From Pontederia crassipes (taxonomy: Eukaryota; Streptophyta; Magnoliopsida; Commelinales; Pontederiaceae), in contig CM060195.1 in NCBI GenBank assembly GCA_030549335.1, positions 6,231,001-6,295,000 on the forward strand: a DNA stretch of 64,000 nucleotides, written 5' to 3'. Below the pieces are notes generated by a model. The model saw nothing but the letters and a program-made list of their open reading frames with translations, was not told the origin of the DNA and ran no database searches. Below, in pieces: positions 1,361 to 39,600 of the stretch. The position numbers were made by a program, and so were the translations under genes. Position 1 is the stretch's first letter, and every line of letters begins with the position of its first letter.

Positions 1361-1591
1361 GGAAAAAATTACACCAAATGTCCTCCAACTTTCAACTTCG
1401 CTCAACGATGTCCTCCAACTTCACTTTGTAACAGTGATGTCTTCCATCTCTTAACTTGTTTCATGTGATGTCCTATTTACTTGAGATAGGCGATCACTCG
1501 ATTTTCGATTGACGCGGCATCCACGTGGTCATATCCTCTCTCCTTCATGTAACTAGCCGTCCGACATGGCATGATCCGACGTGGCACCGCA
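1361..1591 (+). repeat. MULE left terminal inverted repeat
   Basis: This segment matches the reverse complement of 12132-12350 over about 220 bases. Shared blocks include the ACACC terminus, the repeated CTCCAACTT units, a GAGATAGG..GATC block and the ACTAGCCGTCC..GGCATGATCC block. In other MULEs the TIR supplies the promoter, so it probably drives the GRF gene that starts at 1826. Confidence 0.85.
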
Positions 1592-1825
1592 TACTTGTCT
1601 CTCCTCCATGCGATCTGAGTTACTAATTCGGGCGATTCAACTGTCCTTCGCGTTCGTCATTTTGATTTACTTGTAGGTGGTCGGCTGCTTCTTCGGTGAT
1701 TGCGCCGTCATCTTTCCCTAAAGTCGTTTCCTGTTCGCCGACGACCCCTAGTCTCGATTCCAGAGGTTTTTTTATGCTAGCGGCCCGGTAGAGTTCCAAA
1801 TCCCTAATATTCTTTGCCTCGAAGA

Positions 1826-2228
1826 ATGGCATCATGGAAGGCCATAAGGAAGTACGACTGCGGAGAAAAAGCAATCATTAGGATGTCGTGGACGAAAAGT
1901 AATCCTGGTTGTATGTTTTATGGCTGCCGAAATTTTGGTGTGAGTTCCCAAAATCTTTTTCCCCTTTTCGTTTGATTTTCACAGTTTCATGTGGTGACAC
2001 TTTCAGAGGATTCAATGTTGCGACTACTTCGATTGGCTGGATTCATTCATTGATAAAATAAGTCGGATGATGATGAACGACCTTTTGCGGAAGATCGAGA
2101 AGCTGGACCATGCGCTTGAGGAGGAGAATGAAAGGAATCGGCTATTGGAGTTCCAGATAGAAGATCAAAAAGGTCATATTCGAAGATTGGAAATCAAAGT
2201 TGAAGCTGTGAAGGCGAAATATTATTGA
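1826..2228 (+). CDS. GRF-type zinc-finger / coiled-coil protein carried by the MULE
   Basis: This is a two-exon gene I reconstructed: exon 1 is 1826-1939, the intron is 1940-2006 (GTGAGT..CAG, 67 bp, phase 0) and exon 2 is 2007-2228, giving 111 residues and a TGA stop. Residues 10-46 match the zf-GRF pattern: YDCGEKA, then SWTKSNPG, CMFYGCRNF and CDYFDW. The candidate zinc ligands are Cys12, Cys29, Cys34 and a Cys at 42 or 43. Residues from about 60 on are a charged, Leu/Glu/Lys-rich helix likely to form a coiled coil. GRF fingers bind single-stranded DNA or RNA in several repair enzymes, but the role of these small plant proteins is not known to me. The start is the first in-frame ATG upstream of the finger. 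The frame is intact although the neighbouring transposase is ruined. Host-gene capture by the MULE is an alternative origin. Confidence 0.72.
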
Positions 2229-2499
2229 CTTTTGAAAAATATAATTGTATTTTGTTTAGGCGTCCTTCTTTTGTATGTTATGAGTCATGTAGACAATCGG
2301 ATTTTAATATGTATTTTGGAAATATATTAATGGTATGTTTGGAGATTGTATTAGTTGTATATTCTTTTCAATGAGAAATCTTATTGTTTGTGTCACTATC
2401 TTGTCAATGTTAGTGATATTTGTTTTGAAATGATCGTGTGCGTTCATCGTATGCGATTTGTGGAGTAGGTCGACTGTATCTAAAGTTAAATAGGTAGAA

Positions 2500-2587
2500 C
2501 ACAAATGCTCAAGAAGAAAAATAGGACTACCCTCCAACTTTCAAATATAAAAAAGAACTACCCTCCAACTTTCAAATTTGAAATAGG
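2500..2587 (+). repeat. CTCCAACTTT minisatellite, left half, split by a solo LTR
   Basis: Two copies of an ACTACCCTCCAACTTTCAAAT unit lie here. Related, more diverged units (CCTTCCAATTTTG, CCCTCCATCT, CTCTCCAACTT) resume at 4225. The same motif occurs in the MULE termini. 2583-2587 (ATAGG) is the left target-site duplication of the LTR that splits the array. Confidence 0.55.
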
Positions 2588-4224
2588 TGATGCATGCAAA
2601 AATTTTAGATTATTATTTTAATTAATTATTCTGTAATTTGATCATGGCATGCATCATTTTTAGTCACTTTTAGTCATAATTCTGGATTTATTATTTTTTA
2701 ATTATTAATTCTCTTAATATTTTAATTATGGATGGATTAATTAAATTTTGATAATTATTTTACAGGAAAAATCGAATACATGATTATCCAAGGATTATAT
2801 TTGATCAAGAATGGACGTATCGACCGAGAATTCCAACCCCAAAGATCATATCGGCCGATAAATCACCAGAGATATGTCTGTATCGGTCGAGAACTCCATC
2901 GTATCGCCCGAGAACTCCAAGACAAAGAGATGTATCGCCGAGAAATCCATATCAATCATGTTTTACGGCCGTAAAAATCCAATTTTATCTCATCCTTATC
3001 GGCCGATATCTTTGGATACAAAAGAGTTTTGTGGCCGAGACTAGAAAGTATTTTATCGTTTTGGTCGAGATATGAAGGGGGTAAAGATAAAAAGATTTTA
3101 TCTTTTGGGCATAATAGCTTTATAGTTTTGGCCGAGATAAAGAGAGAGAAACACAGTTTATCGGCCGCAATCAACTCAAATGTTATCTCACAAATTTAAA
3201 ATTGACCGTACGATATCACGACCGTCCGCACCCTATAAATAGAGGAGAGAGCCATCATCCCAATTGGTGCTTTGAAGTTTGATTTTCGTCCACAGAAAGT
3301 CGAGAGTCTGCAGGCTTCGACCAGAGAGAGAGATTTGATCGGACGGCTGTTATTCCGACCACATTCGATGGCCCTGATTTTATTCTTGGTGTAATTCTTT
3401 CAATTATTATTGTTATTATCTCACTGCATTTCTGGGATGAACTCCATGTTCTTAATTATTTTATTTTTAGGAGATTATTATTGAAGGGAAATTCTGTGAA
3501 CCCTTACTTTATCATTATTAAATTTCTTTTGATCAATTTTTAATTATGTTTAATGCTTTTGATTTAATTATTTAAATTTATGAGTTAAGTAATTACCAGT
3601 TTGTGGACTACTTAATTTCAGATTTTATTTAGTTAAATTAAATGATTTATTGTGAAATTGAAAATTGACATAGGTCTAATAACTAGTGTGTGGAGAATTA
3701 GATATGTGTGGTCTGTTAATCTATACCAGTTTGTGGAGTGATTAATAGTTTAGGATTTTCATATTAATGCATCTTAATTTTAATTTCATCTAACGAATAT
3801 TAGTTGTGGGACTTCAGATTTGATTGAATTTAAGATAATTTGATTTGCCGAATTAAATAGCAGAATTACTAGTTTGTGGACTCTATGATGTTAATCTTGT
3901 AAATTAATAACTTGGGAAAATTCCTAATCCATCTTGAGAAGTTTAATTTATCTTTTCTGATTCACATATTTATCCTTAAATTATTATCATCCTAAGATCA
4001 ACTTCAACACCATTATCTTATCTTTATCTTATTTTCTTTATTTTATTTCATAAAACTCATTTTCAAAATCCATGTTTTTTTCTTCTCTTATTAATTTATA
4101 AATTCAGATATTGAATTAATAATATTTCTCGTGGGTTCGACACTCTTACTCCTATTTTTTATATTACTTGAGCAACTAGTGCACTTGCTAACGATTTTAT
4201 TTTGCTACATCATTTTACGCATCA
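2588..4224 (+). mobile_element. Solo LTR of an LTR retrotransposon (1637 bp)
   Basis: The block starts TGATGCATGC and ends TTTTACGCATCA, an inverted TGATGC/GCATCA terminus obeying the TG..CA rule. It is flanked by a perfect 5-bp duplication, ATAGG (2583-2587 and 4225-4229). It contains no gag, pol or primer-binding site. A TATA box (CTATAAATAG) lies near 3233, and the 3' part has the CTCGTGGG..CGACACTCTTACTCCTA layout common in plant Gypsy-type LTRs. The 2820-3170 part is studded with TATCGGCCGA-like motifs. This is the residue of LTR-LTR recombination inside the MULE. Family assignment is inference. Confidence 0.88.
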
Positions 4225-4631
4225 ATAGGACTACCTTCCAATTTTGTTTACGAAACAGTTATGCCCTCCATCTTTTTACAATGCCCTCTGACTTTGTCCG
4301 TTTTAAATACAATACCCTCCATCTTATATGAAGTTTCTCGAATGCTCTCCAACTTTACGATTTTGCGACAATACCCTTCTCCTGCTTTTGAGCTCGAAAT
4401 GATCAAATACAAATAGTTTTAATGCTCTAAGAGCGCAATTTTGACAACTATATCATTTTGCGAAATAGAAACACATCAAGATACATATCAAATCCGTTAA
4501 TTATAATATTCAAATGATAACATCCACAAACATCCACAAACGTTAATATCCAAATATTAATGTATAACTATTTGTCAACATCCACATCCACAAAGGATAA
4601 CAGTAAAAAATATCCACATCCACAATGTACA
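4225..4631 (-). other. MULE non-coding segment, presumed 3' region of the transposase gene
   Basis: It begins with degenerate CTCCAACTTT-type units, then has about ten scattered copies of a CATCCACA-type motif (for example ATCCACATCCACAA near 4570-4625). No reading frame is visible. By position it follows the transposase C-terminus at 4632-4850. Confidence 0.45.
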
Positions 4632-4850
4632 TCTTAAGAAGAGTTCTTCGTCAAGTGCGACGCTTTTTCCCAGCGTTCTTTCGCTTTTTTTGCACGGTTG
4701 CCTAAGAAGCCTGAGATGCACCCTCGGCTTCAAATGGAGCCTGAGATGTCTCACATCCTGTTGGAGCCTGCGATATCTGAAATGTCTGAGTTGTCATGCT
4801 TTTGCCGCTTTTTCGCTGCACAAGAGAAAGAGACATTACTTTTCAAGAAG
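4632..4850 (-). pseudogene. C-terminal remnant of the MULE transposase
   Basis: Read on the minus strand, this is a Gln/Ser-rich low-complexity tail (Q-G-S, S-Q-A-S-G repeats) followed by a Lys-rich stretch. That matches the C-terminal tails that follow the zinc knuckle in many plant MULE transposases. It is separated from the zinc-knuckle exon (8465-8671) by the inserted CACTA copy and contains in-frame stops. The assignment rests on position and composition, so it is tentative. Confidence 0.45.
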
Positions 4851-5149
4851 CAAATAATAAATTGATGAATAAACACGCAGGAGGTGCAAGGATACATTAA
4901 GTAAGTTTAGTCTCAATGCGTTCCTTTTTTTGTATTGTGAAACTATAGATTGATTAACCTATCACTTTGTATTTAGTACTTTCTTGCAGTGCTACAATGT
5001 CCCTGAAGAACATATACAATATAGAATTGAGAATGACTTCGCATCGTGGTTTAAGGATCAGGTAACTCTTACAATGTTGGTCATGTTCTAGTGTATACGA
5101 TTATTTCTTGACCTTCATTTTCATTTGAGGTTCTGAGTACCGCTATTTC

Positions 5150-5842
5150 TACTACATCTGGTCTCCATAATTTGGCATGGGGACCGGCTCGAGAGGTTAA
5201 AAGTTGGCCGATGTATTTCGTGAACGATTATAAATTTCACACGAAAAGCTGGTCGAGAGGGAAGAAAACCATGAACAGTGGTGTAATTGGTTTGATCCAC
5301 GGACGGTGAAAATGAGCGTGACTACTACGATATTCTAAAGACATAATTCAACTAGAATACACTGGAGGTAATAGAGTCACATTGTTTGAATGTAATTGGT
5401 TTGATCCAAAAGAAAAAAAGAGGGATGCGAGTTCATAAATATTTCAAAATAGTTGAAGTACGTCAAAATAGGTGTTATGAATGTTTTGATCCTTTTATTA
5501 TTTCGTCCTCTACAAGACAGATATATTATGTGCCATATTCAAAAAAGATGAGGGAAAAAACACAATGGTGGGTTGTAATTAAGACGAAGGCAAGAAGCAT
5601 GATAGAAATTGATAGTGTGCTGCAATGTGTATACCAAGATGACTCACATACTTCTGTGGCACCTATTGTATATACCAAATTAATCGAAGATCTATAAGAT
5701 TCAAAACAATTATTTGAAGACTTCGATAATGTCGAGATACAAAATGACGACAATGCTTCGGATGAAGATGAAATTGAAACTACGTCATCTTCAGAGGATG
5801 ATGATGATGAATATGTATCATGTGGTAATTCGGATGATGAGT
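5150..5842 (+). pseudogene. CACTA DUF4216-type protein fragment, copy 1
   Basis: The best open stretch is 5386-5697. It shows the DUF4216 core: MRVHKYFKIVEV, a region around YYVPYSKK, QWWVVIKTKAR and QCVYQDDS. A TAA at 5695-5697 interrupts the frame where copy 2 has CAA. Beyond it the same acidic tail continues (FEDFDN.., then a run of Asp/Glu/Ser) to about 5842. DUF4216 lies near the C-terminus of TNP2-like proteins of plant CACTA elements. The catalytic TNP2 domain is absent here. Confidence 0.75.
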
Positions 5843-6299
5843 AATGTTATTATTAGCCAATGTTATTTTCCTGTAATGTTGTCATCTTACGACTATCTGG
5901 TTGTTGTAATTTAGATGATCTTATATTCGAATGGTTTATTTAAATTATCATCTGTCCTAAAATTGTATACATAGTTAGCGATGCATGCTGACGATCATTC
6001 GGATCGACGAATGCCTGACGAGGACGATGCATTTCCATATTCGATTCCATCTCGTGAGTGTTTAAAATAATGATCATAATTTTACAAATAAAAAATAAGT
6101 GAATTAATTTGTTTATTTTTTATAAGCACCTCCGGATATTAGGAATTTGTTCTCGAGTTATACATACAATTTCGTTCCTGAAGATGCGACACAAGACGTA
6201 GCCGAACGTCAGGTCGAAACATTGTCAATTTAAAGTTTTCTATAAATTGTAAATTTGAAGTGCATTAAATTTTGTATCATGAAGATGTTTCATTTTCAG

Positions 6300-7772
6300 A
6301 AAGGAAGAAATAAGGGAAAAGAGAAGGTTGCCCCTAGAGATACTTCTTCAGACGAAGTGCCTAGATCAGTCAGGGGCATTCGCATAGTTGAATGACAGTC
6401 TCCTCCGTCGGCTCCTTTCTTTCACGATGATATTGCGAACTTGGAGACACAATTGTTAGAAGAACCCGTTAGAGCTCCTGATTCGGTGGAACCTTCAGAT
6501 GCAGCCTCGTCAAATCGGGTATACAAAGCATACGTATAGCCAGATGGTAATTTAGGGTAAGTATTATTTTATGTATTTTGAAACATTTACATTTTGTGAT
6601 TCAAACATCGAATTTTATAATTTCGTATTCGTAAAGGTTTGTACCATCGAAACCCGCGATTGCCGTAGTTACTAAGGTGCTACGACATAGGTATACTGAT
6701 GCGTGGCTTACATGAAGGGAAGTTCCATATGCCACGAGATAGATGTTATTTAATGAATTTCAGGTATCCTCAGAAGCTAATTTGGTCATTTAAATTTATA
6801 TTCATACTGCATTAATTATTTTTATGTACATGCAAGCTGATGTGTGGTGGGATCCCGAGCACATGGAATAAATGTGGAAGGCTTTTAATTCTTGGTGCTC
6901 AAAGATATTGTCCACGATGCTTTCGAAAGCTCGAGCTGCAGGAGAACGACCGAATTGGATTCCTGAGACTGTTTGGATCGAATTGCTACAGAAGTGGTCT
7001 ACCGAAGAGTACAAATCAAAATGCAAAAAAATGAAGTCAAGTCAAGAGTTCGACCAGGGAGCATGCTTGCATTCGGGTGGATATGTATCCATGAGCACGA
7101 TTGCAGCTAGAATGGTAAAATCTTTGAATACATTATTATATTTCAAAAAATAATATATATTATTTGACATTTTTCACTGCATGAAAAAGAGACGGGTAGA
7201 GCACCTACTTGGGACGAAATATTTCTCAGAACTCATCAGAAGAAAAATAAAGAATGAGTTTCAACGTTTGCTCGAGAGACATACATAAGTAAATATATTT
7301 GATGTGTTTTCTGGTTTAATTTCAGGACGGTTACATAACATAATGTAAATTCGACGTTTTAAATAATGTAGTCTTATGTTTTTTCTTAAAATTTCAGGAG
7401 GCTTACAAAACAAGAGAAGCCGAGCAACTTACGCAAGCCATGCAGGAGGGGATCATACCGCTGACCACTCGACAACTTTGGACGAACCACGTCGACGTCA
7501 AGAAGGGTCGCATTTATGGCCTCGAATCATCTGTTAGTAGTGCAGATATCGGGTATGGTCGTAAATCGATATCAGGTTCCCAGAGTCAAGGTGTGCAACA
7601 AATGTTTGATAATATGTGGAAACAACATTTATCCGATGTCCGACAAGAGATCAGGCAGGAGGTTATGCATGAACTCAGAAAAGAGTTCGAAGAACGTGAG
7701 CGTGAAATGAAGAAAGCGATGAAGAAAATGATGCGTGGCGAGTTCAACGATGACGACGATCTAGTATTGTAG
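6300..7772 (+). pseudogene. CACTA Transposase_24 (Ptta/En/Spm, TNP1-like) pseudogene, copy 1
   Basis: Five exon-like blocks are collinear with copy 2: a Lys/Pro-rich N-terminus (6300-6555), the RHRYTDAWLT block (about 6637-6762), the WWDPEHM..WKAFNSW..W..ELLQKWSTEEYKSKC block (6838-7113), KKRRVEHLL (7180-7290) and a Glu/Arg/Lys-rich coiled-coil C-terminus ending DDDDLVL (about 7399-7772). This is the plant Ptta/En/Spm family thought to bind the element's subterminal repeats. In-frame stops at 6393-6395 (TGA), 6713-6715 (TGA) and 6867-6869 (TAA), plus a TAG near 6739, make it non-functional as written. Confidence 0.78.
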
Positions 7773-7964
7773 TTTCTAGGTGTTGTATATGACGTTTGGA
7801 CATTTGACGATGTTGTATTGACATTTGACGTTATGCATGACATTTGAACATTCAATTTCAATTTGGTCATTTGGACATTCATTTCGATGTAGTATTATGC
7901 TTATTTATTAATTATTCAATTTGAATTTTGTCAATTCGGGTAGCTGCGAAATTTTTTTATTAAA

Positions 7965-8446
7965 TTGGTATCAACGGTTCAAACCGTCGATAGTGTCACA
8001 ATCGATGGTTAGAACTGTTGATAACCATCGACGGTTTGAACCGTCAAAATTTATAGACTGTCAAACCCGTCGATAGGCTCGACCATTTTAACCGTCAAAA
8101 CTCAACGACAGTTTGAGCCGTCGAAAATCTTTGGTATTATCGACGGCTCAAACCATCGATGTATATTTCGATGGTTGGAACCGTCGATAGTATCGACAGC
8201 TCAAACCGTCGATATGTATCGACGGCCAAAACCATCTCAATTCTTTGTTGTTCGACGGCTCAGCTTGCCAACTGGACAATCGAAAATTGTGACGATTGTG
8301 AGAGAACCATCGAAAATAGTTTGCGACGCATCATTTTCGAGCGGATGCTATCCGACAAAAAACTCATCGAAAATTGTCGTTTTCGATGATTTTCTGCAAA
8401 TTACAGACGGCTATGACCGTTTGTAATTGCCTTATTTCTTATAGTG
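7965..8446 (+). repeat. CACTA subterminal repeat array, copy 1 right end
   Basis: About 15 copies of a TCGACGGTTnnAACCGTCGA motif occur in both orientations, many as near-palindromes. In En/Spm such subterminal repeats are the binding sites of the small TNP protein. The terminal TATAGTG at 8440-8446 is followed by AAA. Confidence 0.8.
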
Positions 8447-8464
8447 AAAAGGGATAATTATCTA

Positions 8465-11400
8465 TTAAGCACTTACGTGTGATCTTTTGTTGTGACCAAC
8501 CTCTTCGCAAATAGTACATTTCATTCGAATCATTCCTCTCTCGGGCAATTTTCCTTTTTCGTCTGAAGATTTCTTAGCCTTTTCTAATTCTTTTGCCTCC
8601 TTTCTCCTAGCTTTTTGCTTTCTTCCTCTTCTTGTATTAGCAAATGATGGCGGATTGATTGGTGTTGGCACCTCCCCGACCGGCCACTGATCGCGTCCAT
8701 ACAGATGTTGTATAACATGTTCATAAATTTTTAAGAAAGTTTCTGTGAAGTAACACGTATCTACATGAGCATATGGGTCCTTGTTGTTTCCAAATATACA
8801 TGCAATTGCATGTACACACGGGATCCCTGTTAGTTGTCATCATCTGCAACTATAAGTCCTCATATCCATGTCAACTAGGTACTGGGCACCTTCGGAGTTC
8901 ACTTGTACTTTTGAGCCACTTGAATAAGCTATGAAAAACCAATTAAGATAGATTAACATTACATGTGGAAATGGTTCAAACATGAATAAGTAGGCTCCCA
9001 TAACATAGCATTTTTCTTAGTAGCTTCTACCTTTTTGCAGATTTTGGAACATATGAGCCAGTTATGCTTTTTCATTGCCTCTCATTTTCTAAACAACCTT
9101 ACCATCAATTTTGTACGGATGATTTCCATTAATGTTATTATTGGTTTGTCCCTCGCATCAAGAAGGTACTTGTTGTAACACTCGAATAAATTATTCAGCA
9201 ATATGTCACATTTTGGCACCTTCGAGAAACAGGCCCTGCTCGATGAATTAGTCGAACATTCTCGAATCCATTTTCTTGCCTCCGACGACTTCTTTTCTGG
9301 TTCATCCAGAAAGTATTGCATTCTCTCTGGAAATGTTGCTCTAGCTATACTCCACAATAACTCTTTATATTCAAGACTCTTGAATTCCGATGTTCAGCCG
9401 ACGGGAAGACATTGCAAACGGCATTAACAAGTCCCTGCACAATAAATCCATATTTTAGTAATGAAGTTTAGAAATTTATTTTTCAATATACAACGAAGAA
9501 TTATCTTTTATCGATTGCTCATCATCATCCAACCTCTACCATTGTTCATATCGAGATCCTCGCGCAGGTGCTCCAAAAATCATGTCCATGTAGCTATGGA
9601 CTCATTCTCCACATATACATGCACAATTGGAAACATGCAGTCATTAGAGCCAATACCTACAACTGTTAGAAGAAAATGTTAGAGGAAATAATTAGACAAA
9701 CAACATGCTTGAAGTGTTAGACAAATAACCTGTTAGAAGTTGTCCTCCTAATCCCCCTTTAAGAAGCACCCATCTAGGAAGACTAGTGGTCTGTAGCCAG
9801 CTTTGAACCCATCGAAAAGTGCTTTGATGCATACGTACAAACCCTTCCACTGGAAATTTTCAAATAGACCTGTCATCGTGCTCTCTAGGTTTGCTCTCAA
9901 CATCTCTACCCGATATATGTACAATAGCATGTACTGCTCTGCACCAGCTCCATGAATTGTCTTCAACGCCAAGTCTTTGGCTCTCCACGCACACATCCGG
10001 CTTACAGCATAAGACATGTCCCTCTTCACTTGGTCATAGAGGCCCTCCCATCTCGGGTCACTACGAAAGTTGGACTTGTATTTTTTTGCGAGCCTCTTGT
10101 ATGCTACATGATAATTCTTGAAAACCTTTGGACATGTATGATCAACTTGAATCCTCTTTATCTGCCAAGTGGGATCTTGGGAATCCTTCAAATTCTTTGG
10201 AGAGCACATCACCCTCCATCCATACTTTTTGTGGCATGCAACTACTACCCTTCTGTTGTCACTCTTCGAAAAGCACACTTGAAACATATTTTTAATCTCG
10301 TGCACTTCGCAACTCCGCCTATGTTTTATAGCCGGTCCCAAGCCCGGATAAAGAAGGAGGGTTGTGTTAGGCCCCGACAGCCAGTGTAAAACCCTGTCGA
10401 ATCTCATGAACATGGATCAACGGCATCGTATGATCCATGTAGCCGATCCCACCTAGTGGGATAAGGCTTTGTTGTTGTAGTTGTTGCACTTTGCAGGTCT
10501 CAACGAACTCATGTTTGTTGTTGAATAGCATGCCCACCTCAGAAATAGGATCTTCCATATCCTTGTCTGCATAAAAAATAGGATCCATGTTTCTCACTTC
10601 ACCCTCCTCAAAATCGGAGTCAGATTCTATTACAAGCGATCCAAGTCTTCGTACTCTGAATCTGAACAGTTGGCAGTCTGAGATATCACGTGTGTGTCAT
10701 CCCACTGCATCGACCTCTTACCCTTTTTAACTCCAGCTTGGACACCTTCATCCTCGACACCTTCACCCTCATTAACTTCACCTTGGATACCATTAACTTC
10801 AGCTTGAGCCTCAACTTGTACACTTTCAGCCTCAGCTTGTACACCTTTAGTCTTAGCTACATCTTCCCTTGCCTCAGATGCAACCTATACCCCAGCTCCA
10901 AAATTCTGTTCTCTGCTCTTTTTGCCCTTCTGAATATTCTCTTGAAGGTCATCATCGTCCTCTTCAATGTTGTAGTCTTCATCATGCAGCTGGTCTTCAT
11001 CCTCAGCATCAGTGTCATCCCTAATGCATTCGTTCTGTATCCGGAGTGTGTCATTCTGCCTCTAAATCACTCAGCCTTGCATTTTCGACGAACTGGTGCT
11101 TTCGATGATAGGTTCAGGCTCAGACTCAATTTCTTCCACAACCAATCGCCCAGGAGGTGTAGGAGGTAGTGGCAAAAAATGGTCTACGTCCTTCTCTTTC
11201 AAATGCCACATGTACAAATCAATATGCCCTACTTCAGCTACTTGGGCACACATCTCCAAAACCCTTCCGTCGTTGTGGATGCTTCTAAGTCATGTTGTCC
11301 AATCCTTCTCTGGCTCAGCCCAGTGATAACACACTAGCCCATCCACGCCAATGATTTTAACCATGCTGTCGATCTCAATCAGGGACATCAAGTCGGGGTC

Positions 11401-11475
11401 GCAATCACAGTAGGTCTCCACCTCCCTATTATGGTAACCCCATTCACCTTTTTCACCGTCGAAATGAATATGCAA
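8465..11475 (-). pseudogene. MULE (MuDR-type) transposase pseudogene
   Basis: Domains on the minus strand, N to C: an N-terminal part from 11475 and an acidic/Pro-rich linker (about 11250-10620). Next is a MuDR DNA-binding domain (10560-9990) with VVVACHKKYGWRV and HTCPKVF. Then comes FLDGCFLKG..GGQLL (about 9730-9790), which opens the DDE catalytic domain. GSNDCMFPI and WT-stop-FLEHL follow at 9500-9670, then LLNNLFECYNKYLLDARDKP (about 9130-9200). A SWIM finger (YSCR..GIPCVHAI, about 8810-8860) and a CTICEEVGHNKRS zinc knuckle (8465-8520) close it. Breaks: a stop between the first two N-terminal frames, a retroposon inside the MuDR domain (10312-10485), TGA for Trp in WTWFLE, a double stop in SWIM, and the CACTA insertion just after the knuckle. 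Intron boundaries are only partly resolved. Confidence 0.85.
10312..10485 (+). mobile_element. 174-bp RTE-tailed retroposon in the MULE transposase
   Basis: It starts ACTCCGCCTATGTTTTATAG and ends with the tail GTAGCC..CCCACCTAGTGGGATAAGGC followed by TTG repeats. It is flanked by a 10-bp duplication, GCACTTCGCA (10302-10311) and GCACTTTGCA (10486-10495). The insert is the same element, with the same 5' end, as 53001-53167. It splits the MuDR DNA-binding domain of the transposase. Confidence 0.85.
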
Positions 11476-12131
11476 ATTGAAAAGTACAGAAACTACAATA
11501 AGTACACAATAATCACAATTAGAAGCAAAAAATTAGATCAACACAGAATTAACCAATCCCTAAAGAAATTTACTTTTGCTTTTTCTAAAAAAAGTAACTA
11601 ATTGCCTTTGTTTCTCCTCCTTCCATCTCCTGTCATTATCAGCTTTCTAGACAAAGAATAGTATAGCTACAATAAACAATGAACAATTAGGGTTTTGGGG
11701 GACCACATTAGAGTTTAGGATTTCATTGGAGGTCCATATTAGTAACAAAACACACGATTTTTTGTCACCTAGGGATAGGGAGTTTGTCGGAAGGGGTCAA
11801 TTTAAATTTAGGGTTACAGTGGGACCTAGAAATTAGGGTTATGAACCAAGTAACTCAACATCAAGCAGATGACGCACAAAAGTATATAAACAAATCTACA
11901 CACCAGAAAGCAGATGATGTCGGTGTCCTTCCTTCCTCATGGTGTTTCGACAACCCTTTGCGCGATGGAACCTAACAGTGGACGATGGCGAACGGGAACG
12001 GACAGCGACGCTTGGGCGAAGATGGTGGTTGGCGAACGCGAACGACAAACGACGAAGGATGTTTCACACGAACGGCGACGAAGGGAGGAATAAGGAAATA
12101 AATTAACAAGGTAAGTAACATAACATGATTT

Positions 12132-12350
12132 AATATGTGGTGCCACGTTGGATCATGCCATGATGGACGGCTAGTTACGTGGAGGAGAGAGGAGATGGCC
12201 ACGACTGGAAATTGAGAGATCACCTATCTCAGGTAAAGAGGGTATCGTGTGAAATAAGTTAAGAGATGGAAGGCAACACTGTTAAAACTGAAGTTGGAGG
12301 GCATCACTGAGCAAAGTTGAAAGTTGGAGGGAATTAGGTGTAATTTTTCC
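12132..12350 (-). repeat. MULE right terminal inverted repeat
   Basis: This is the inverted partner of 1361-1591. It would act as the promoter end for the minus-strand transposase gene. Confidence 0.85.
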
Positions 12351-12359
12351 TAAAATTAT

Positions 12360-18397: not shown

Positions 18398-19939
18398 CTA
18401 TAAAACTAAATCTACCTCGTCGTCGACTTCCCCATGCATGATGTCACGCACCATTTTCTTCATTTCTTTCTTGGTACGACGTTCACGTTCATGTTCACGT
18501 TCTTCGAACTCCTTTCTGAGCTCCTGCGTAATCTCTTCTCTGATCTCTTGCCTGAGATCTTGCCTAATCGAATGCCTCATTTCATCCATAATTTGTTGCA
18601 TACCTTGACCGGATGAACTCGAACCCGAAGTAGATTTACGACCATATCCAATATTTGTACTGACAGAAGATTCGAGGCCATAAATGCGACCCTTCTTCAC
18701 CCCGACGTGGTCCGTCCAAAGTTGTCTTGGGTCAACGGTGTGGTCCCCTCCTGTGTGGCTTGCATAATGTGCTCGACTTCTTTTGTTTTGTAAGACTCTT
18801 GAAATTAGAAAAAAATCAACTATACTAAAAAAATATTATAAATCAACGACGATTTTACTATCTTATAGATTTACTTGAAATTTTTTAAAAAAAAGTGGCA
18901 CATAAATCTACATACATATGTGTTCCGAGCAAATGATGAAACCCATTCTTTGTTCTTCTTCTGATGAGTTCGGAGAAATACTTCGTCCTGAGTAGGTGGT
19001 CTACCCGTCTCTTTCTCCTACAGTTAAAAATGTCAAATAAAGTATAATATTTTGTCGATACAATATTGAAAGACTTTACCATTCTCTTGACAATCGTGCT
19101 CATGAATATACATCCGCCCGAATGCAAGCATGCTTCCTGGTCGAACTCTCGACTTGTTTTTGGTTTTTCGCACTTCAATTTGTACTCATTGTGGACCACT
19201 TTCGTAGCAATTCGATCCAAACCGCCTCGGGGATCCAATTCGGCCGTTCTCCAGCAGCTCGAGCTTCGGAAAGCATCGCGGACAATCTTTTCGAGCATCG
19301 AGAATTAAAAGTCTTCCACATTTATTCCATATTCTCGGGCTCCCACCACACATCAGTCTGCATGTATATAAAAACAATTAAAGTAGTACGAAGATAAATT
19401 GAAATGACCAAGTTGGCTTCTAAGGATACCTGAAATTCATTAAATAGCATCTGTCTCGTGGCATAAGGAACTTCTCTCTATGTAAGCCACGCATCTGTAT
19501 ACCTATGTCGCAACACTTTAGTAACTACCGCAGTCGCGGGTTTCGACGGTACAAACCTGGAACAATACAAGATTATAAAATGCGATGGGTGAATCATAAA
19601 ATGAAAAAGAATTCGAAATACATAAAATAACACTTACCCTAAATTCCCATCCGACTCTAAGTATGCTTTGTGTACACGATTTGACAAAGTCTGGTCTGAG
19701 CCTTCCACGGAACCATGATATCTAACGAGTTCTTCCGGCAATTGTGTCTCCTGGTCCGCAATATCAGCGTGAGAGGAAGGAGCCGGCGGAGGAGACTGTC
19801 GTTCTATTATGCGAATGCCCGTGACTGATCTAGGAGCCGACGGAGTAGAGTTATCTCTAGGGATGATCAACTCCTTTCCCTTATTTTTCCTTTTACCAAA
19901 ACGTAACATCTGCATGATATAAAATTTAATGCAAGTCAA
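18398..19939 (-). pseudogene. CACTA Transposase_24 (TNP1-like) gene, copy 2
   Basis: This is collinear with 6300-7772. The blocks are an N-terminal exon (19939-19637) with a Lys-rich start and Pro/Ser linker ending SDGNLG, and the RHRYTDAWLT block (about 19557-19432). The WKAFNSW-type block with W..ELL..W follows at about 19350-19080. The C-terminal exon (18700-18398) is an Arg/Glu/Lys-rich coiled coil ending DEVDLVL. The first and last exons are open. A TAG (19478-19480 on the plus strand) replaces the Trp after DAWLT, and a TAA (19322-19324) precedes MWKAF, so the gene is not intact as written. It is better preserved than copy 1. Confidence 0.75.
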
Positions 19940-20387
19940 ATTAACAATTGATACAAAACTCTAATGTGACAACGTCTCAATCTGACTATGTTCGGCTACA
20001 TCTTGTGTCGCATCTTCAGAAACGGAATTGCACGTATAACTCGAGAACCAATTCCTAATATCCAGAGGCGCTTATAAAAAATAAATTAATTAATTCGATT
20101 AAGTTTATGCGTAAAATTGGGATCACTATTTCAAACACTCACGATATAAAAGCGAATATGAAAATGCACCGTCCACGTCAGGCATCCGTTGATCCGATTG
20201 ATCGTCAACATGCATCGCTAACGCATCAAACAATATGACGAGAGATGATAATTTCAATTAACCAATATGATACAACATCAGTATTAATCGTAAGCGAATA
20301 TTTTCATAGGATAACAACAATCATAATACAAGATCTCGATTAGGTAATAAAAATACAACATGAGTGTGACATTAGGTAATAATAACA

Positions 20388-21070
20388 TTAGTCATCGTCT
20401 GAGTTACCACATGACTGGTACTCATCATCATCATCTGAAGATGACGTAGTTTCAAATTCATCTTCATCCGAATCATTCTCATCATTTTGTATGTCGGCAT
20501 TATCGAAGTCTTCAAATACTTGTTTTGAATCTTGTAGATCGGCTACTAATTCGGTGTCTACAACAGGGGCCACAGAAATATGTGAGTCATCTTGATATGC
20601 ACATTGTAACGCACCATCAATTTTTATCATGCTTCTTGCCTCCGTCTTTATTGCAATCCACTATTGTGCTTTGTCTCTGGTTTTCTCCAGATATGACACA
20701 TAATATACCTGTCTTGTAGAAGACGGAATAATAAAAAAATCAAAACGATCATAATACCTATTGTGACGTATTTCAACTATTTTGAAATCTTTGTGAACTC
20801 GCATCCCTCTCCTTTCATTTGGATCAAACCAATTACACTCGAATAATGTGATTATATTACCTTCAGTGTATTACAGCTGAATTATGTCTTTGAGAATACC
20901 GTAGTAGTCACGATCATTTTCTCCGTCCGTGGATCCTTTGACACATACTCCACTGTTCACGATTTTCTTTTTGATCAGCCAAGTTTCCGTGTGAAACTTA
21001 TAACCGTTCATAAAATACACCAGTCAACTTTTCACCTCTCGAGCTGGTCCCCATGCTAAATTTCGGAGAC
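20388..21070 (-). pseudogene. CACTA DUF4216-type region, copy 2
   Basis: The frame reads through RRGMRVHKDFKIVEI, YYVSY.EKTRDKAQ, a TAG (20661-20663) where copy 1 has Trp, then IAIKTEARSMIKI, QCAYQDDS and an acidic tail ending CGNSDDD with a stop at 20388. Only the last part (20630-20388) is open. It corresponds to the C-terminal portion of a TNP2-type CACTA protein. Confidence 0.72.
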
Positions 21071-21495
21071 CAGACGTCGTGTCGGTACTGAGAATCTAAA
21101 AAGAAAATGAATGACTTTTCTTAGATCGTGAAGGCTTCAAATTGATGATGATCGTAAGAGTTACCTGATCCTTAAACCACGGTGCAAAGTCATTCTCGAT
21201 TCTACCTTGAACATCTTCTTCAGGGACATTGTAGAACTGCAGGAAAGCACTACATACAAAGTGATGGATAAATCAAAATGTTGTTTGGGAAGACCAAAAA
21301 GAAAAGAACACATAGAGAATAAACTTACTTAATGTACCCTTGCACCTCATGTGTGTTTAAAAGGACATGATTTGTGGCAGACTTGAATTCTGCATCACTC
21401 AACTATTTACTTCTTGGCTTCCCAAAATGTCATCCTAACTGATTGAAGATCAACAAAGATGCCATAACAGACTGTTCTTCTGGGACTTCATCATT

Positions 21496-28000: not shown

Positions 28001-28879
28001 AAAAAAATTAGTCAGCACATCAAATTTAACAGACCCAACATATATGTCGACTATTGTCGATTTCATAATCGATGGTAGCCTTGGATAATATAGTTTTTAG
28101 GATGAAATCACACAGATCGGTCCATGCTTTCTAGAGCATCAGCTCTTTGCTAATTTTCACTCTAAAACATATTTCATTGATATTCCATGATCTTTGTGAA
28201 TCCTAGACAAGTCAATACACGACCAACGTGGAAGGACAGGTCAGAATCACCACAACTTGGATGCCACCCATCCTTTGTTGCGATAGACCTCACATTGATC
28301 TTGCAGAGCTCTTAGTACTCATAAGCTTCATTTTTGCGCGTTAGCAAGTATATTGATCCTTGACTTAGATGTGGAGATCGCTTTTAAGATAATTTGATAC
28401 AAAGTTTTTGTTGCATTAGGTGATGACTTTCTTACTTGTTCTCCTTGTTTTCTCCATTGCAACATCGAACTTTAATGTCACTAGTTTTTTTTCTCCTTTT
28501 TATTGTGTCATTCCTCTTGTTCTATTTTTTTTGTGCATGATAATTGGCGAGCCACCATTTTAACATGATTGATTTGTTATCCTTGTTTAGAATTGCATTC
28601 AAACAAATAATTAATATTGACTATCACAACATTATTTAGGTTCTCTGTGGCCAAACCTCCATTATGTCTAATCTATTACATGATTTGGCATGAGGACCTA
28701 GTCGATATGTGACAATTTGGTATGTATATTTTGTGAATAATTACAAATTTTATACAAGAAGTTGGTCACATTGTAAGAAAATAACTAACTATAGTGTATG
28801 CGTCAAAGGATCTACTGATGGAGAAAATAAATGTAAATATTATGGTATTCTTAAACATATCATTGAGTAAGAATGCCCT

Positions 28880-29340
28880 TGACGTAATAGAGTTACCTTT
28901 TTCGAATGCACTTAGTTTGATCCAAAGAAAAAAAAGGAATAAGAATTTATAAAGACTTCAAAATCGTTGAAGTATGATGTAGTAGATGTTATGAACGATT
29001 TGGTCCATTTATCATTTCATCTTCCTCGAGGCAAGTCTATTATGTCATTTATCCTGAGAAGACAAAAGACAAAGCTCAATGGTGAGTTGTTATTAAAAAG
29101 AAAGCAAGAAATCAGATTGAGATTGAAGATTTGTTAGACGTTGCATATCAAGATGATTCACTTACATTGGCGGGGCCAATTGTATATATGGAGCTGATTG
29201 TAGATTTATGGAATGAAGAATATTTATTTGATGACTTTGATAATGTTGACATAAATGATGAAGAAGCTGAAGATGGTAGCATCGATAAAGATGATTATGA
29301 AAGTACATATTCTTTGACTTTCGATATGTTTGAACATATA
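28880..29340 (+). pseudogene. CACTA DUF4216-type remnant, copy 3
   Basis: Recognisable pieces are KDFKIVEV, YYVIYPEKTKDKAQW and VAYQDDSLT..GPIVY.EL, plus an acidic tail (29131-29330), with several frame breaks. It is more diverged from copies 1 and 2 than they are from each other. Confidence 0.68.
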
Positions 29341-29629
29341 ATTTATGATTTTCAAAATATTTTTAAACATAGTCTACGATGCATCCTCATGTTTCATCGG
29401 ACCAACAATTTCTTGTCGAGAGTGAATCACCTCCGTGTTTTTCATATTGATCACAAATTTAGAGTTTCAAATAAAAAATTTAGTACTATTTTTTTTTCTT
29501 TTTCAAAAGCGCCTCTGAATATTAGGAATTAGTTCTCAGGTTATATGTATGATTTAATTCCTGAAGATTGATGCAATACAAGATATAGCCCAATTTTAGG
29601 TTAATGTGATGCAATTATTATATTGGTGT

Positions 29630-30653
29630 TATAACGACCCTGATTTTTTAGGATTTAATAAATGGATATTTTATTATATTATTTTGAAAAATATTGTTAT
29701 TAATATTACTACATTTAATAATTCCGAAAATAAAATAAAATTGAGAGGAGTTTGATTAGGGATAGGATTATTCGATTAATTTCGTAAATTATCTAATCAA
29801 ATATTAGAATAAATAGGGAGTGGTTAAAGGGATAAATTAGAGGATTTAATTTGAATGAGATTAGATAATATGGTTAGAGAATGATTAAAAATCTATAAAC
29901 ACTATAAATAAGAATAGGGGGTACGAACGTTTTGGCTTCGTCTTCGTTATTTTCGGCTTCGTCTTCGGCGACGTCAGAGAACAAGGCGCGCAGATACGTA
30001 GGGGGGATTCCGTTTTCTATTGTGTCGTAATATTTTACGGTGCAATCTAGTTTGGAATTAGAATTATTACGGCCGCAATATTTGTTTGCTATTGCATCGT
30101 AAGGTTTTACAACGCAATTTAATTTTAAATTAGAAGTATTACGGTCGAAAATTTGTTTGGCCGTAATTTTCTGTTCCGGCCGTCAAGAGAGAGAAGAGTA
30201 GAGTTTTACGGCCGAGAAAAGGGTGGAGAGAGAATTATAAAAATAAGAAAAGGATGAAGTTTACGGCCGTAAAGGAATAGGGGGTAAAATTTGGAGAGAG
30301 AATTAAAAAAAAAGAAAAGGATGAAATTTACGGTCGTAATGGAATAGGGGGTAAAAATTTGGAGAGAGAATTAGAAAAAAAAAAGAAAAGGATGAAGTTT
30401 ACGGCCGTAATGGAATAGGGGATAAATCTGGAGAGAGAAAGATGTAGAAAAAAAAGAAGAGAATTTACGGCCGTCAAATCAGAGAGAGAGAGATTTATAA
30501 AAAAGGGGAATTGATGTTACGACCGTAATGAACAGGGAGGAAGATTTGGAGAGAGAAAATTAGGAAAAAGTGGGAAAAGTAAATTAATTTGTTAACCTTC
30601 ACGCAGAAAATAAAATTCAGGAGAGGAAATTTCTTTCTCCAACCTCTCGGCCA

Positions 30654-30689
<36 letters not shown>

Positions 30690-31917
30690 ATAGTGCAGAG
30701 AGTACACTACCGAGAGTTATTATTTATTTTTGAGTAAATTTTAATTACTGATTATTATTGTTGTTATTAATTAATTTGATGTATTAATTATATTGTTGGT
30801 GATTGATCTGTTTATATTATGATGAACTTTGATTTTGATTGTATTGTTGACCTACTTAGTTTTGAGTTCAGAATTTATCTAATCAAATTGATAATTTATC
30901 AAAAGATAGACATTTTAGGTAAATAAGATAAAAGTCGAAAGTTACTGGGCCCATGTTCACTGATTGCCACTAAGCCGGGACCAATTGAATTGAATTGAAT
31001 TGAATGTGGTAGATAGTGTAAAAGCTATGGCTATCTTGTGTATGGCCACTCGTCCCCCACCATACACGAACCCATTGAATCGTATCGGGCTTGTCGTGGC
31101 ACTGACCCCCACTGGCCTGCATGAAAGTGGCATGGTATCCCTTAATTGACTGAGCGCTCCTCATTGAATTGGATAACTCTGAACATTGAAAATCGAATCG
31201 AATTGAATTGAATTGAAATTGGAATTGAAGTGAATGGAATTAAATCATGGTCATTTGGATATATTGGCATGGAGTTGGCAATTATTATTGCCCTATTGGA
31301 TTGAATTGTTATTGGCCAATGACCATTGATTATTGAATTGGAAATTGTTAATTGAATATTGATCTATTAATCAGGCAATTGATAAGTATTAATTGGAACA
31401 ACTGTTATTGATTTACATTGGTCTGTTGACCATAGCCTGATATATTGTTTATATTGATAAATTGTTAATTGATTATTGTATTGACTGCTCAATCGACTCA
31501 TTATTGATTTTATCTTATTTTCGATTGAGCATATTGATTGTCTTTTAGACCCTACGTACTGAGTATTTTTATACTCATGGATATTTCCCTGTACCTGGAT
31601 CCGTGCAGGTGAGAGAGCTATAGATGATGGTCCTACAGGTGGCTACGCTCAGTGACAGACAGATGTTGCACATGGCATTAGATCTAGTTATTTAGTTTTA
31701 TTATTTCCGCACTTATTAGAATTGTAAACTCATGGATGTTTTAGCATTTCTATTATTATAGACTATTAGTTATTATTTTTGAAAAGTCTTCCGCATTTAT
31801 GTTTTATATTCTGCACTTTATAGATTTTATTCTGCAAAAATATTTTATAGAAAATTGAGTAGCGCCTCTGGGACGACTCTGGGCACGTGAAAGTCACGTG
31901 GGTCTCGGGGCGTTACA
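29630..31917 (+). mobile_element. Solo LTR (2288 bp) inside CACTA copy 3
   Basis: It starts TATAACGACCC and ends GGGGCGTTACA, inverted termini equivalent to TGTAACG..CGTTACA with the first G changed to A. It is flanked by the perfect 5-bp duplication GGTGT (29625-29629, 31918-31922). A TATA box (TATAAATA) lies at 29903-29910. It carries no protein-coding domain. Comparison with the uninterrupted CACTA copy 1 supports the junctions. Confidence 0.88.
30195..30560 (+). repeat. Tandem ~60-bp repeats with ACGGCCGTAA palindromes in the solo LTR
   Basis: About six imperfect units of the form TTTACGGCCGTAA.GGAATAGGGG.TAAA.TTTGGAGAGAGAA.T..AAAAAAGAAAAGGATGAAG are present. Each unit carries the palindrome TTACGGCCGTAA or a one-base variant. 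Confidence 0.75.
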
Positions 31918-31949
31918 GGTGTTGTTTGACAATTAAACTTATTATGCAA

Positions 31950-33550
31950 GCAATTTTCCTATGTAGATGTTTCACATCGATAAAGGCAAAGGTAAGGAAA
32001 AACAAAATGTCCCTCCTTCTAGAGAAGGAGAAGGAGACGTGCTATCTAGATCATATTGTTGAGAGACAACTTATACCGGGTGCTCCTTCTTTCAACGATG
32101 ATTCAATAGAGGCCACTCCATCACTTGGTATTGCTGATATGGAGAGGATTTCTCGAAGTTGCCATTGATGCTTGTACTAAAATAATTAGGTAGATATATG
32201 ATCAATTATGTTCTTACATGGAGAGAAATTTTGCATGCTACAAAACATATGTCGTTTAGATAATTTTAAGTTTGTATCCTCATAGTATTTTTTGTGAATA
32301 TTTGTTGTCAATTTTTCAGAGAAGACCATTAGATGCGCCAGTAAGAAGAGTAGATCAAATAATCTGGAGTCCGATTAAAAGAGGGAGAGGGAGGCCAAGG
32401 CGGACACTTGGCGAACTAATAGAGCAAGATCTATTGGTGAATAATATACCGAAAGGTTTGGTTACTAATAGAGCGGAATGGCGTCGTATGATCCATGTAG
32501 CCGACCCCACCTAGTGGGATAAGGCTTTGTTGTTGTTGTATTTGTTGTCAATTTTGAATTATTATGATATTAATATTATATCTTTCTTTGAAGGATGACG
32601 TGTGGTGGGATGCTGAGCACATAAAATAAATGTGGAAAGTGTTTAATTCTAGGTATTCAAAATGATTGTCTTCGATATTGTCATATGCAAACGTCACTAC
32701 TGGATTAGTGAAACTCTATGGGCCAAGTTGTTAGCAAAGTGGTCCACTGAGGAGTACATATCAAAGTGCGAAAAAGTTAAGATAAATCCAAAATCCGACC
32801 AAGAAGTTTGCCTCCATGTGGACGATTGTATATCTACATCCACAATATCAAAAAGAATGGTAAAGCAATGCACTAATATCTTTATAATTTTATTTACTTA
32901 TCTTTAAAAAGAATGAAACTCGGAATGAAACTTTGGTTTTAATTGCAAGAAAAAGAGACGAGTAAATCACTCACTGAAGATGAGTTTTTTCTCAAAATCT
33001 GTTAAAAGAAAAATAAAGAATGGGCTTCGACGCTTACTTACATACATGAATATAGATTCAAAATAGTTAAGAAGATCATGATTTTTTTATTAATAGTCAC
33101 TTCATAAATTTCATGAGGGTTTTAAGGCAAAAGAATCGTAATATATTATGCATGCCATGCATAAGAGAGCGACACTGATGACATCTCAACAACTTTGGAC
33201 AGATGATGTCTCGACAACTTTGAACGGATCATGTCGACATGAAGAAGGATCGCATCTACCATCACATATCATCTATCATACACATATTAGATATGGTCAT
33301 AAATCGACATCCGATTATCCATGACAGAATGTACGACTTTTGGAAAAAAAGAGATGGTATGTGGGAAAAATGATTGATGGAAGTACGGCAAGAAATCTGA
33401 CAAGAAATGCAATAAGAGACTTGAGACGAAGTACGACAATAATTTGAGCAACAACAACGACAGATACTGGAATCTAAACAAAAACAAATGAAGATCATGA
33501 AGCGACAAATCATGTGTGGCCAACAAGACAATGATGACGACGATGACTAG
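31950..33550 (+). pseudogene. CACTA Transposase_24-like remnant, copy 3
   Basis: The parts are collinear with copy 1: the KGKGKEKQNVPPS-like N-terminus at 31980-32170, VWWDAEH at about 32595, W.KLLAKWSTEEYISKCEK at 32700-32790, and a Gln/Glu/Arg coiled-coil end at 33340-33550 finishing in an Asp run. There are multiple stops and shifts. It is split by the RTE fragment at 32316-32539. Confidence 0.65.
32316..32539 (+). mobile_element. 5'-truncated RTE-type LINE, 3' end of ORF plus tail
   Basis: It is flanked by a perfect 16-bp duplication, ATTTGTTGTCAATTTT (32300-32315, 32540-32555). The open frame ending at 32514 encodes the C-terminus of an RTE reverse-transcriptase protein (RRPLDAPVRRVDQ, RGRGRPRRTLGELI, AEWRRMIHVADPT, stop). 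It is followed by GTAGCCGACCCCACCTAGTG, GGATAAGGC and TTG repeats. Stop codon and tail overlap. Confidence 0.85.
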
Positions 33551-36608: not shown

Positions 36609-39600
36609 TTAGATGAAGCTGGCAGGTTGGAATGGATGTGATTTTGTTGTTGAAGCTGGTGGTGGCTGTGGACGGGAAGCTGCTACGCTGGTAGTTGAGA
36701 ATCCTGATGATGCTGCAGAGGAGAACAGCGGCAATGGAGTAGGGCCATGCATCTGCCATGGCCAGTTGGTGAAGGGTTGCAGACCCACCACAGGCCTCTT
36801 ATCTCTGGCTCTTTCCTACATCATGCAGATAGCAAATAAGCGCAAAGAAACTGACAACAGGAAGAACATGAACATCTGATGAACAACTAGCAACTGAAAT
36901 AGAATATTAATTTGTAAACAAATTAATGTTAAATGAGGTTTCAAAGGTCATAAACATTAATAGATAAAAACACAGTTTTCCGACATATCCTCTAAAACAG
37001 TGAGCTTTCGACGTAAAACAAATGGCAAAAGGACTGTACGAAAAGAAGTGAAATATCATGCCTAGGTAAATTTGTTTCTCCTTATGGGAGTAGCTCAGCT
37101 AGAACAAATTCTTAACATCTGCATGATTGTTCAGTGGGAAAGAAATACTACAAGTAACTAACAGAGGTTGTTACATAACAAAAGTTTTTCCATTGCATCA
37201 TAATGACACCTACTATGTGAAACCAAAAAGATGTAAAATGTCAATGCCTCATGTATTAATGACTAAAAAACAAAAGGACAACAAAAGAAGCGATCCAAAA
37301 CTTTTTTCCGCTATGCTTCCTAAACCAAAAGCACAATGGTCAACAATGTTTTAGACAAAAGAAGCTCCACAATTAGATGCAAAAAGAAATGGACAAAAAA
37401 AGGTATCAGTACCTCAACAGTTGTAGAGAAACCAGGATTACGAGAATTCCAATTATTGATTCCCTCAGGTTGTATAACCAAGCGATGCGGTATAGGTGCA
37501 TGTTGGAAAGGAGGGTTTTCGATCTGTGGGGGTATATATATCACAGACACCAAGCATCATTAACTTTGATACAGCAATTTGTTAAAAATACAGTTAGCAT
37601 TTGCACATAAATGAATAAAAGGCTCTTCTAAATATTCAACAGATAATGGTATTGGCGAAGCAGAAAAGAACGGAAACAACTGTTTCCTAAACTGAAAAGG
37701 AAGAGAATAAATTTGACTGGTAGCAAGTCACCTACCCTAGCTCTTTTAATATCAGAATCCCCAAATTGGAATTGGACACCCAAGAATCTGTCATCTCTCT
37801 TTGGACTGTGAACAATAGGCTGAGAAATTGACAAGTTCAGATCTACCCCATGACCTGGAGAGAAATAGAAAGAGTTGAGATGCAACCAGGATATCTTCCA
37901 AGTTCTGTATCCAATGATAATCTCATATATACAAGAAGCAATTGAGGAGCATACCTTGGACGTCAGTCTCACCAAGTAGCTCTCCCTCATAGGAACTTGG
38001 GTCAAAGTTTGTGACAGCCTCCCTCCCGTTACACTTTATAGCTGCCTTGTCGTAAGCTCTGTTGTGGATACGCAACAAAAGAACAAAACAAACATTGGTA
38101 CTGGCGCAAAGTAAAATTAAGAGTAAAACTATTGAAATAAAGAGTTGAAAACAATGACAATCCATGCTTAGTAGGACCTTGCTGCTTCCATTTCGGTGTC
38201 GAATAGCCCAAGATATATGTACCTGCACACCCAAGCATCGTGTTCTCATCGGTAAAGAGTGGGTTTGCACGACCTTGATTATTTGTCAAAGAATTGGACA
38301 TTTTTACATCTAACAGGTGACCTATTATTTTCTCTAACCAACAAATTATTGTGATTTACCCACGAAGAGGTACGGATCGAAACTAAAACAAACTAAGTAA
38401 AAACTATTATTAATAGGAAGATACATATCAGAAGGGCGTTCTTACTTTTTGCCTAGGAACTGACCCATGCGAGCTTCCCATCGACCACACTTGTGGAGGG
38501 TCACTCCTCTGTACTTTGAGCTACCCCTTGAAAATCCATTACTCTGGCGACGAAGTATGTGCAAGAATTCTTCCTTCGATAAATCCCTCATCTAACAGGT
38601 CAGGAAGGTGCTGATAAATTCAGACTACGAAGTCCAGTGACCGATGAAGCAATCTTAGGATCATTCGTTCATTTACCTGTTTCATGTCTTCCTCGTAGTC
38701 TCTTAGATTGAAATTAATGTCAGCATCCATGCCCCGGAACTTAATTGCTGCTCGATCATATGCCCTGCAAATAGAAACATATTTCAATCATCCTCTATTC
38801 CAGATTAGGTCGAACACAGTAAAACTACTAACACAAAAGGAAGATCATTCCGACCTTGCGGCAGCATGAGCAGTGTCGAAGCCGCCTACAAACGTGAAGA
38901 CCAACAAAAAAAGATAAAAGTTAGATAATTTTTGCATCGCCATAATAGAGATACTAAATTTTCTCAGCAACAATTACCTACCGAGATAGACTTGCTTCCC
39001 GCAATCCCTGTCAAAATCGAACTTTTTCCAATCAATCGGTGCATTATAGTGAAAATCTAAAGAAAGAATCCAAAGGAATTAGATTCAGACCATATGTGTG
39101 ATTCCCACCGCCCTGTCCTCCGGTAGAAAGTGACGCCGCGGTACTGCGAGCTCCGAGACCGAGGCCCTCTCCTACTCTTCTTAACCTGCTGCTGTGGCAG
39201 TGGTGGCGGCTGCTGCTGTAAAACCCTGATATCAGCCGGCATATCACCGTGGCGGAAATTAATATCCACCCACTGCGGTCTCGACGCCAATGACGAGGAA
39301 GCCGCCCCCAGCTTCACACCATCGTGGGTGATCGGGGCGGCTGGAAATAGCTGCCTGGTGACGAAACCGGAATCTCCCGGCAATTCATTACCGTCGTTCT
39401 CCACCTCTTCGTCCGAATCGTTCTCCCCTTCGCCGAAGGCCGGGCTCTTCAGGATACCAAACTCGAAGGCCGTCACAACGGCGGCCGGGCGGGTAGAGCA
39501 CGAGTCCTCGTCGCCCGCCGCTATGCCAGAAGCCTCGGCGTTGAGTACGGACGATGAGGTGCCGGAGTCCATCTGCCCGCCGTCGGATCCCTCAGACATG

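Follow-up and report, generated by a model that had tools for sequence, protein, structure and literature searches.

A GRF zinc-finger gene as a probable accessory gene of a Mutator-like element lineage in Pontederia crassipes

Why does a plant transposon carry a GRF zinc-finger gene opposite its transposase? A 64-kb stretch of the Pontederia crassipes genome (contig C13, 6,231,001-6,295,000; hereafter the window) holds at 1361-12350 a Mutator-like element (MULE) with terminal inverted repeats (TIRs), a decayed minus-strand transposase gene and, facing it, a two-exon gene for a GRF zinc-finger/coiled-coil protein. The two genes of maize MuDR, mudrA and mudrB, converge. The mudrB product MURB is not known to be related to the GRF protein. 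The original prediction, made from the letters of the window, had described this element, and its TIRs, both genes and its limits are seen as claimed. It offered two readings of the GRF gene: one of value to the element in trans, or a captured host gene that happened to survive. The best explanation overall, to which we give a probability of about 0.7, is that the gene is an inherited, selected accessory gene of a TIR-type MULE lineage, whose product would be a helper in trans. The parts of the element on which the argument turns are as follows.

1361-1593, plus strand: left TIR; its terminus is alike in relatives with other flanks
1826-1939, plus strand: GRF gene exon 1, with the start codon and the first part of the GRF zinc finger
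1940-2006, plus strand: GRF gene intron, GT-AG; aligned GT-AG in 26 of 30 copies, window included
2007-2228, plus strand: GRF gene exon 2, with the end of the GRF finger and the coiled coil; early stop at 2226-2228
2229-2294, plus strand: remnant coding sequence of a hydrophobic C-terminal tail; 18 of 29 copies are open as far as the tail's end
8465-11532, minus strand: MULE transposase gene, decayed and now in several open pieces
12134-12350, minus strand: right TIR, from the TIR alignment (1353-1593 against 12134-12358, 79% identity across 241 bp)

The layout recurs across a family of elements. The left end (query 1353-2516) was searched as DNA against the 1.13-Gb assembly of 43 contigs, and the best 40 of 2628 candidates were scored. 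The 43 matches listed are 76-86% identical to the query (self 100%), and 32 of them, counting the window itself, begin at query position 26 or lower and extend to 1162 or higher, with the GRF gene inside. Many family members thus carry the gene in the same place. The flanks of the fetched copies differ, except in the duplicated pair L027/L028, and the termini are alike. A right TIR, 76-83% identical to the left TIR of the window, is present in all five other elements whose far end was examined. Among 29 left ends (window left out, L028 included), the 3' end of a transposase lies convergent and within 1.5 kb downstream in 23; it was on the same strand in none and was not found in six. The convergent plan likened to mudrA/mudrB in the original prediction, with each gene beside a TIR, is therefore real and belongs to the family.

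Protein searches gave the same arrangement. With the best 150 of 20,697 candidates scored for the transposase and the best 150 of 2616 for the GRF protein, 122 transposase places were set against 108 merged GRF places, a count that omits most exon-1 rows and second gene pieces. Pairs no more than 12 kb apart, among the matches listed, comprise 37 convergent, one same-strand and no divergent arrangements. Spacing is 2.0-3.8 kb in 30 of these 37 convergent pairs; the widest pair, at 11.7 kb, involves a GRF row of only 36% identity and is possibly a chance pairing. A GRF match accompanies at least 12 of 17 transposases of 75% identity or more, 10 of 26 at 65-74%, 8 of 36 at 55-64% and 7 of 43 at 39-54%. 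These shares are lower bounds because L091 (transposase 64%), counted as GRF-less, proved to carry the gene when its sequence was read. The identity of the transposase as MuDR-type is confirmed through relatives, pieces of which exceed the cut-off for DBD_Tnp_Mut, MULE and SWIM; that of the window matches DBD_Tnp_Mut only, at 18.4 bits, below the cut-off of 25. As originally described, it reads inward from the right TIR and is damaged, lying in separate pieces on the minus strand.

Comparison of synonymous and non-synonymous change across copies, proposed in the original prediction as a check, reveals purifying selection on the GRF frame. The set comprised 29 copies and counted the window, but not L028, which duplicates L027. 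Non-synonymous and synonymous changes number 118 and 28 when private to one copy, against 43 and 33 when common to at least three copies (Fisher p = 2.3e-4). After removal of CpG-type changes the counts are 103/26 private and 30/19 shared (p = 0.02). No difference was seen in 11 control readings, made up of the two other frames of the GRF gene and three frames each of the 5' flank, the 3' flank and the TIR (p 0.2-1). The pairwise ratio of non-synonymous to synonymous divergence (dN/dS) comes to 0.37 when all 406 pairs are taken, and to 0.33 when both copies of the pair are open (55 pairs). Six of seven comparisons within and between subfamilies give a ratio of the proportions of such differences (pN/pS) of 0.36-0.51; for the transposase, the range across these seven is 0.25-0.77. 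A GT-AG-spliced frame is open in 11 of the 30 copies examined (one without ATG), and the frame or a splice site is broken in the other 19. Given the dN/dS values, the contrast between shared and private changes and the 19 broken copies, the GRF gene is constrained while lineages are active, and each copy decays after insertion.

The anatomy of the protein is best read from the relatives. The GRF zinc finger profile (PF06839) is matched by eight of eight family members, with a best E of 9.7e-10. The four putative zinc ligands, at positions that we assigned, are cysteine in 24 of 28, 19 of 29, 26 of 28 and 27 of 29 copies. Relatives extend about 20 residues beyond the window's stop, into a hydrophobic tail whose 17-residue mean hydropathy reaches 2.1-3.0 in four tested copies. 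The common end of the tail is reached by 18 of 29 copies, and another eight are shifted or cut within or near it. The tail is conserved in the family, and its hydrophobicity suggests membrane anchoring. An open frame with ATG, GT-AG splicing, all four cysteines and the tail is present in five of 30 copies (L016, L019, L032, L033 and L037). A search of the Protein Data Bank (PDB) with the family profile returned NEIL3 as the sole GRF-type match at E up to 1, a weak one (E 0.17).

The copy in the window has fared less well. The original prediction called it intact; the frame (1826-1939 plus 2007-2228) is open and encodes 111 amino acids, but a conserved cysteine and the end of the protein are lost. 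The first of the four putative ligand positions is tyrosine, whereas 24 of the 28 copies that have a codon at this place encode cysteine. The stop at 2226-2228, common to three of 29 copies (window, L014 and L015), removes the tail, and peak hydropathy is 0.29. The arginine of the NPGR motif is also replaced by cysteine, at a variable position (arginine in five of eight aligned rows). Pfam Zn_ribbon_GRF matches this copy at E 7e-5 and 23.3 bits, slightly below the curated cut-off of 25.9. The suggestion that the window copy survived because it still acts in trans is not supported, and present usefulness of this copy was rejected on the loss of the cysteine and the tail. Because both are absent, the copy, open as it is, is probably non-functional and is probably a dead copy of the GRF gene.

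Layout and anatomy point to what the living copies may do. The second gene, kept by selection, probably helps the element to survive or move. Sitting just inside the left TIR and facing the transposase, it was held by purifying selection in the lineages that transposed. Its product is a small protein of about 131-133 residues, in which a GRF zinc ribbon at the N terminus is followed by a coiled coil and, at the C terminus, by the hydrophobic tail. We consider it most likely that this protein would work in trans, as a partner of the transposase. Assembly would be the task of the coiled coil; the GRF finger would grip DNA that is single-stranded or flapped, either at the ends of the element or at gaps in the target; and the tail would anchor the protein in the membrane of the nuclear envelope or endoplasmic reticulum (ER). 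Such a helper could serve mobilisation or re-integration, the step served by mudrB in maize. From arrangement and domains we infer that the protein binds DNA, is anchored in a membrane and takes part in transposition.

Known systems offer partial parallels. MuDR, too, has two genes, one of them for a transposase, and each has as its promoter a TIR roughly 200 bp long (PMC8224964); in contrast, the partner of the transposase here is a gene for a GRF zinc-finger/coiled-coil protein that ends in a hydrophobic tail. The original prediction called the role of mudrB unsettled. That role is less open than claimed, because Mu elements are described as needing mudrB in order to integrate (PMC8224964). 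VANDAL elements (vanB/vanC) and KIU elements (Ulp1) likewise have accessory genes conserved within a MULE lineage, but they are described as non-TIR MULEs and their genes belong to other protein families, whereas the TIRs here are long (PMC13317346). A second gene or domain lies opposite the transposase in plant MULEs with an antisense PMD gene (PMC6446971), the domain there being PMD, and in grapevine MULEs with ULP1 in opposite orientation (PMC2528002), where the domain is ULP1 and not GRF. APE2 and NEIL3 share the GRF zinc-ribbon profile, but their fingers are domains of DNA-repair enzymes, whereas the finger here is part of a small coiled-coil protein with a tail. The APE2 GRF finger binds single-stranded DNA (PMC9900424).

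The main rival to a trans-acting helper of transposition is that the GRF protein is an accessory silencing antagonist that would act, like VANC or KIU, on chromatin or small-RNA pathways. Plant MULE accessory proteins with such a role exist (PMC13317346), and a nucleic-acid-binding finger is compatible with it. However, a hydrophobic tail is unexpected in a chromatin factor. We consider an anti-silencing function rather unlikely, though our confidence in it overlaps that in the accessory-gene explanation.

A more improbable alternative is transduplication, in which a host GRF gene entered a MULE by one capture event and has been hitch-hiking since, of no use to the element. Gene capture is frequent in MULEs (PMC13317346), and other kinds of GRF genes exist in this genome: among the matches listed there is a group of uninterrupted GRF rows at 32-36% identity. 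A second repeat group also has a GRF gene, one copy of it in about 1.4 kb between long inverted repeats. On the other side, the selection signal is confined to the true frame. Elements with transposases diverged by about 50% retain the GRF gene with position and orientation unchanged. The exon split is likewise constant where the sequence was read, and in several elements distant GRF genes matched as two exon pieces, like that of the window. The GRF genes of L076, L080 and L084 are about 45-65% identical and still have the hydrophobic tail. Across 15 elements the GRF and transposase protein distances are correlated (r = 0.78, permutation p = 0.0002), and the two gene trees have three of 12 splits in common that are supported in both (GRF/transposase 87/97, 99/100 and 86/90).

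The original prediction named a near-identical host paralog as a sign of recent capture, and none was seen: exon-2 rows at 85% identity or more, among the best 150 of 2616 candidates, all lie in family left ends or beside a transposase. Recent capture of a host gene was rejected on this ground and on the co-divergence of the two genes; it appears unlikely because the GRF gene is kept beside transposases about 50% diverged and the distances correlate. There may instead have been a single ancient capture, followed by use by the element. That the GRF gene sits in a separate element nested at the left end, its pairing with the transposase accidental, is very improbable: TIR-like subrepeats do lie between the two genes, but the recurrent unit of left TIR, GRF gene and transposase, found in many dispersed copies with differing flanks and with a right TIR in five of five, contradicts it.

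The second group of repeats is a matter of its own. L008 is a GRF locus of this separate group, into which at least one uninterrupted GRF row (C4:46855730) falls, so the group apparently lacks the intron of the window gene there. In a DNA search with L008 (best 40 of 5376 candidates scored), about 976 bp with two identical edges (L008:1287-2262) are common to 34 of the 39 listed places besides L008. Another copy, L097 (C8:70341150-70342560), has a broken GRF frame and is flanked by inverted arms, 132 and 41 nt long; the whole takes up about 1.4 kb, which leaves no space for a transposase. An inverted-repeat search in L008 gave nothing useful. GRF genes thus ride at least two repeated groups in this genome, and may be carried by several element families. 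A tentative extension of the helper proposal is that the membrane-anchored GRF protein represents a new class of MULE helper, one that would tether single-stranded intermediates at the nuclear envelope or ER, that replaced or preceded mudrB-type genes and that was later carried by at least one other inverted-repeat group.

The accessory-gene explanation rests on recurrence, co-divergence and the selection signal, from which a long-standing accessory gene follows. Several observations weigh against it. All comparisons are within one plant genome. Among the matches listed, 85 of the 122 transposase places have no GRF match, and in a related group (L088-L090, transposase 53-55% identical) no GRF gene was found in about 3.5 kb beside the transposase piece. 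The comparison that involves L074, a degenerate element, gives a pN/pS of 0.76, which is weak constraint. Only three of 12 splits are common to both trees, most of the others being weakly supported; one GRF split with support of 92 is missing from the transposase tree, in a region weakly supported there, and the trees conflict inside one subgroup at support of 84 to 90.

Full-length members without the GRF gene would also count against an accessory gene, as the original prediction had recognized. Among the matches listed, five places with a transposase of at least 75% identity lack a GRF match. In L092 and L095, family sequence is present to either side of where the gene would lie, and the breakpoints of their internal deletions differ; on this ground these two were rejected as a primitive GRF-less form. 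For L093, L094 and L096, no trace of the left end was seen in the 0.9-1.2 kb fetched of each, and these three are undecided.

The novelty of the finding lies in the domain. Accessory genes in MULEs were already known (PMC6446971), and the original claim that any helper that binds nucleic acid would be a new kind of accessory gene in MULEs goes too far. Precedents are VANC, which recognises short DNA motifs (PMC13317346), and MutB, to which a DNA-binding role is ascribed (PMC6446971). GRF occurs nowhere in the main text of the survey PMC6446971, and no report of a GRF-MULE pairing was found in searches of open-licence literature, including passages of PMC9900424, PMC10359422, PMC6293580 and PMC5413045. 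Among the gene-family entries that a study of Asteraceae singles out is the GRF-type finger, alongside SWIM and transposon domains (PMC10359422). These entries are compatible with spread by transposons, without being a demonstration of it. The GRF-type proteins that are numerous in some plants may in many cases be transposon genes rather than host genes. To the second genes of MULEs, the GRF gene adds one with a recognisable domain and evidence of selection inside the element. In a few copies the frame is open and the splice sites, all four cysteines and the tail are kept; these are concrete candidates for tests of a MULE accessory protein.

The ends of the element and the insertions within it complete the description. 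Both termini start with GG and AAAAATTACACC-type sequence, precisely at 1361 and 12350. Set against the 8-11 bp expected of a MULE target-site duplication, the candidate duplication here is degenerate, because the flanking 9-mers match at only seven of nine positions. The three insertions that the original prediction listed, one solo-LTR-like (LTR, long terminal repeat), one CACTA/En-Spm-like and one short dispersed repeat, are all seen.

1352-1360, no strand: left 9-bp flank, candidate target-site duplication TTAATTTAT, 7/9 match to 12351-12359
2518-2579, plus strand: TIR-like subrepeats CCCTCCAACTTT between both genes, repeat families D5 and D13
2588-4224, no strand: nested solo-LTR-like insertion with ends TGATGC...GCATCA; 5-bp duplication ATAGG at 2583-2587 and 4225-4229
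4870-8446, plus strand: nested CACTA/En-Spm-like element, similar in part to Transposase_24; 3' end near 8446, no fixed left limit
10311-10486, no strand: short dispersed repeat within the transposase, 87% identical to window 53005-53167, SINE-like (short interspersed nuclear element) on inspection
12351-12359, no strand: right 9-bp flank, candidate target-site duplication TAAAATTAT, read from the sequence

The TIR-like subrepeats (CCCTCCAACTTT) stand at 2518-2579 and again at 4224-4275, in the same orientation as the left TIR. Related CACTA/En-Spm-like stretches, 65-79% alike, lie in the window at 4870-8446, 18445-21359 and 28679-33311; the first has the Transposase_24 similarity, at 6872-7153 (26.8 bits, below the cut-off of 28.7). 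The short dispersed repeat also occurs at 32477-32539, 53005-53167 and 55069-55125, with GTTGTTGT-type sequence near one end. An Rfam search gave no matches. On the minus strand at 39057-39755 there is an open frame that, by eye, we take to resemble the start of an AP2/TOE-type transcription factor gene.

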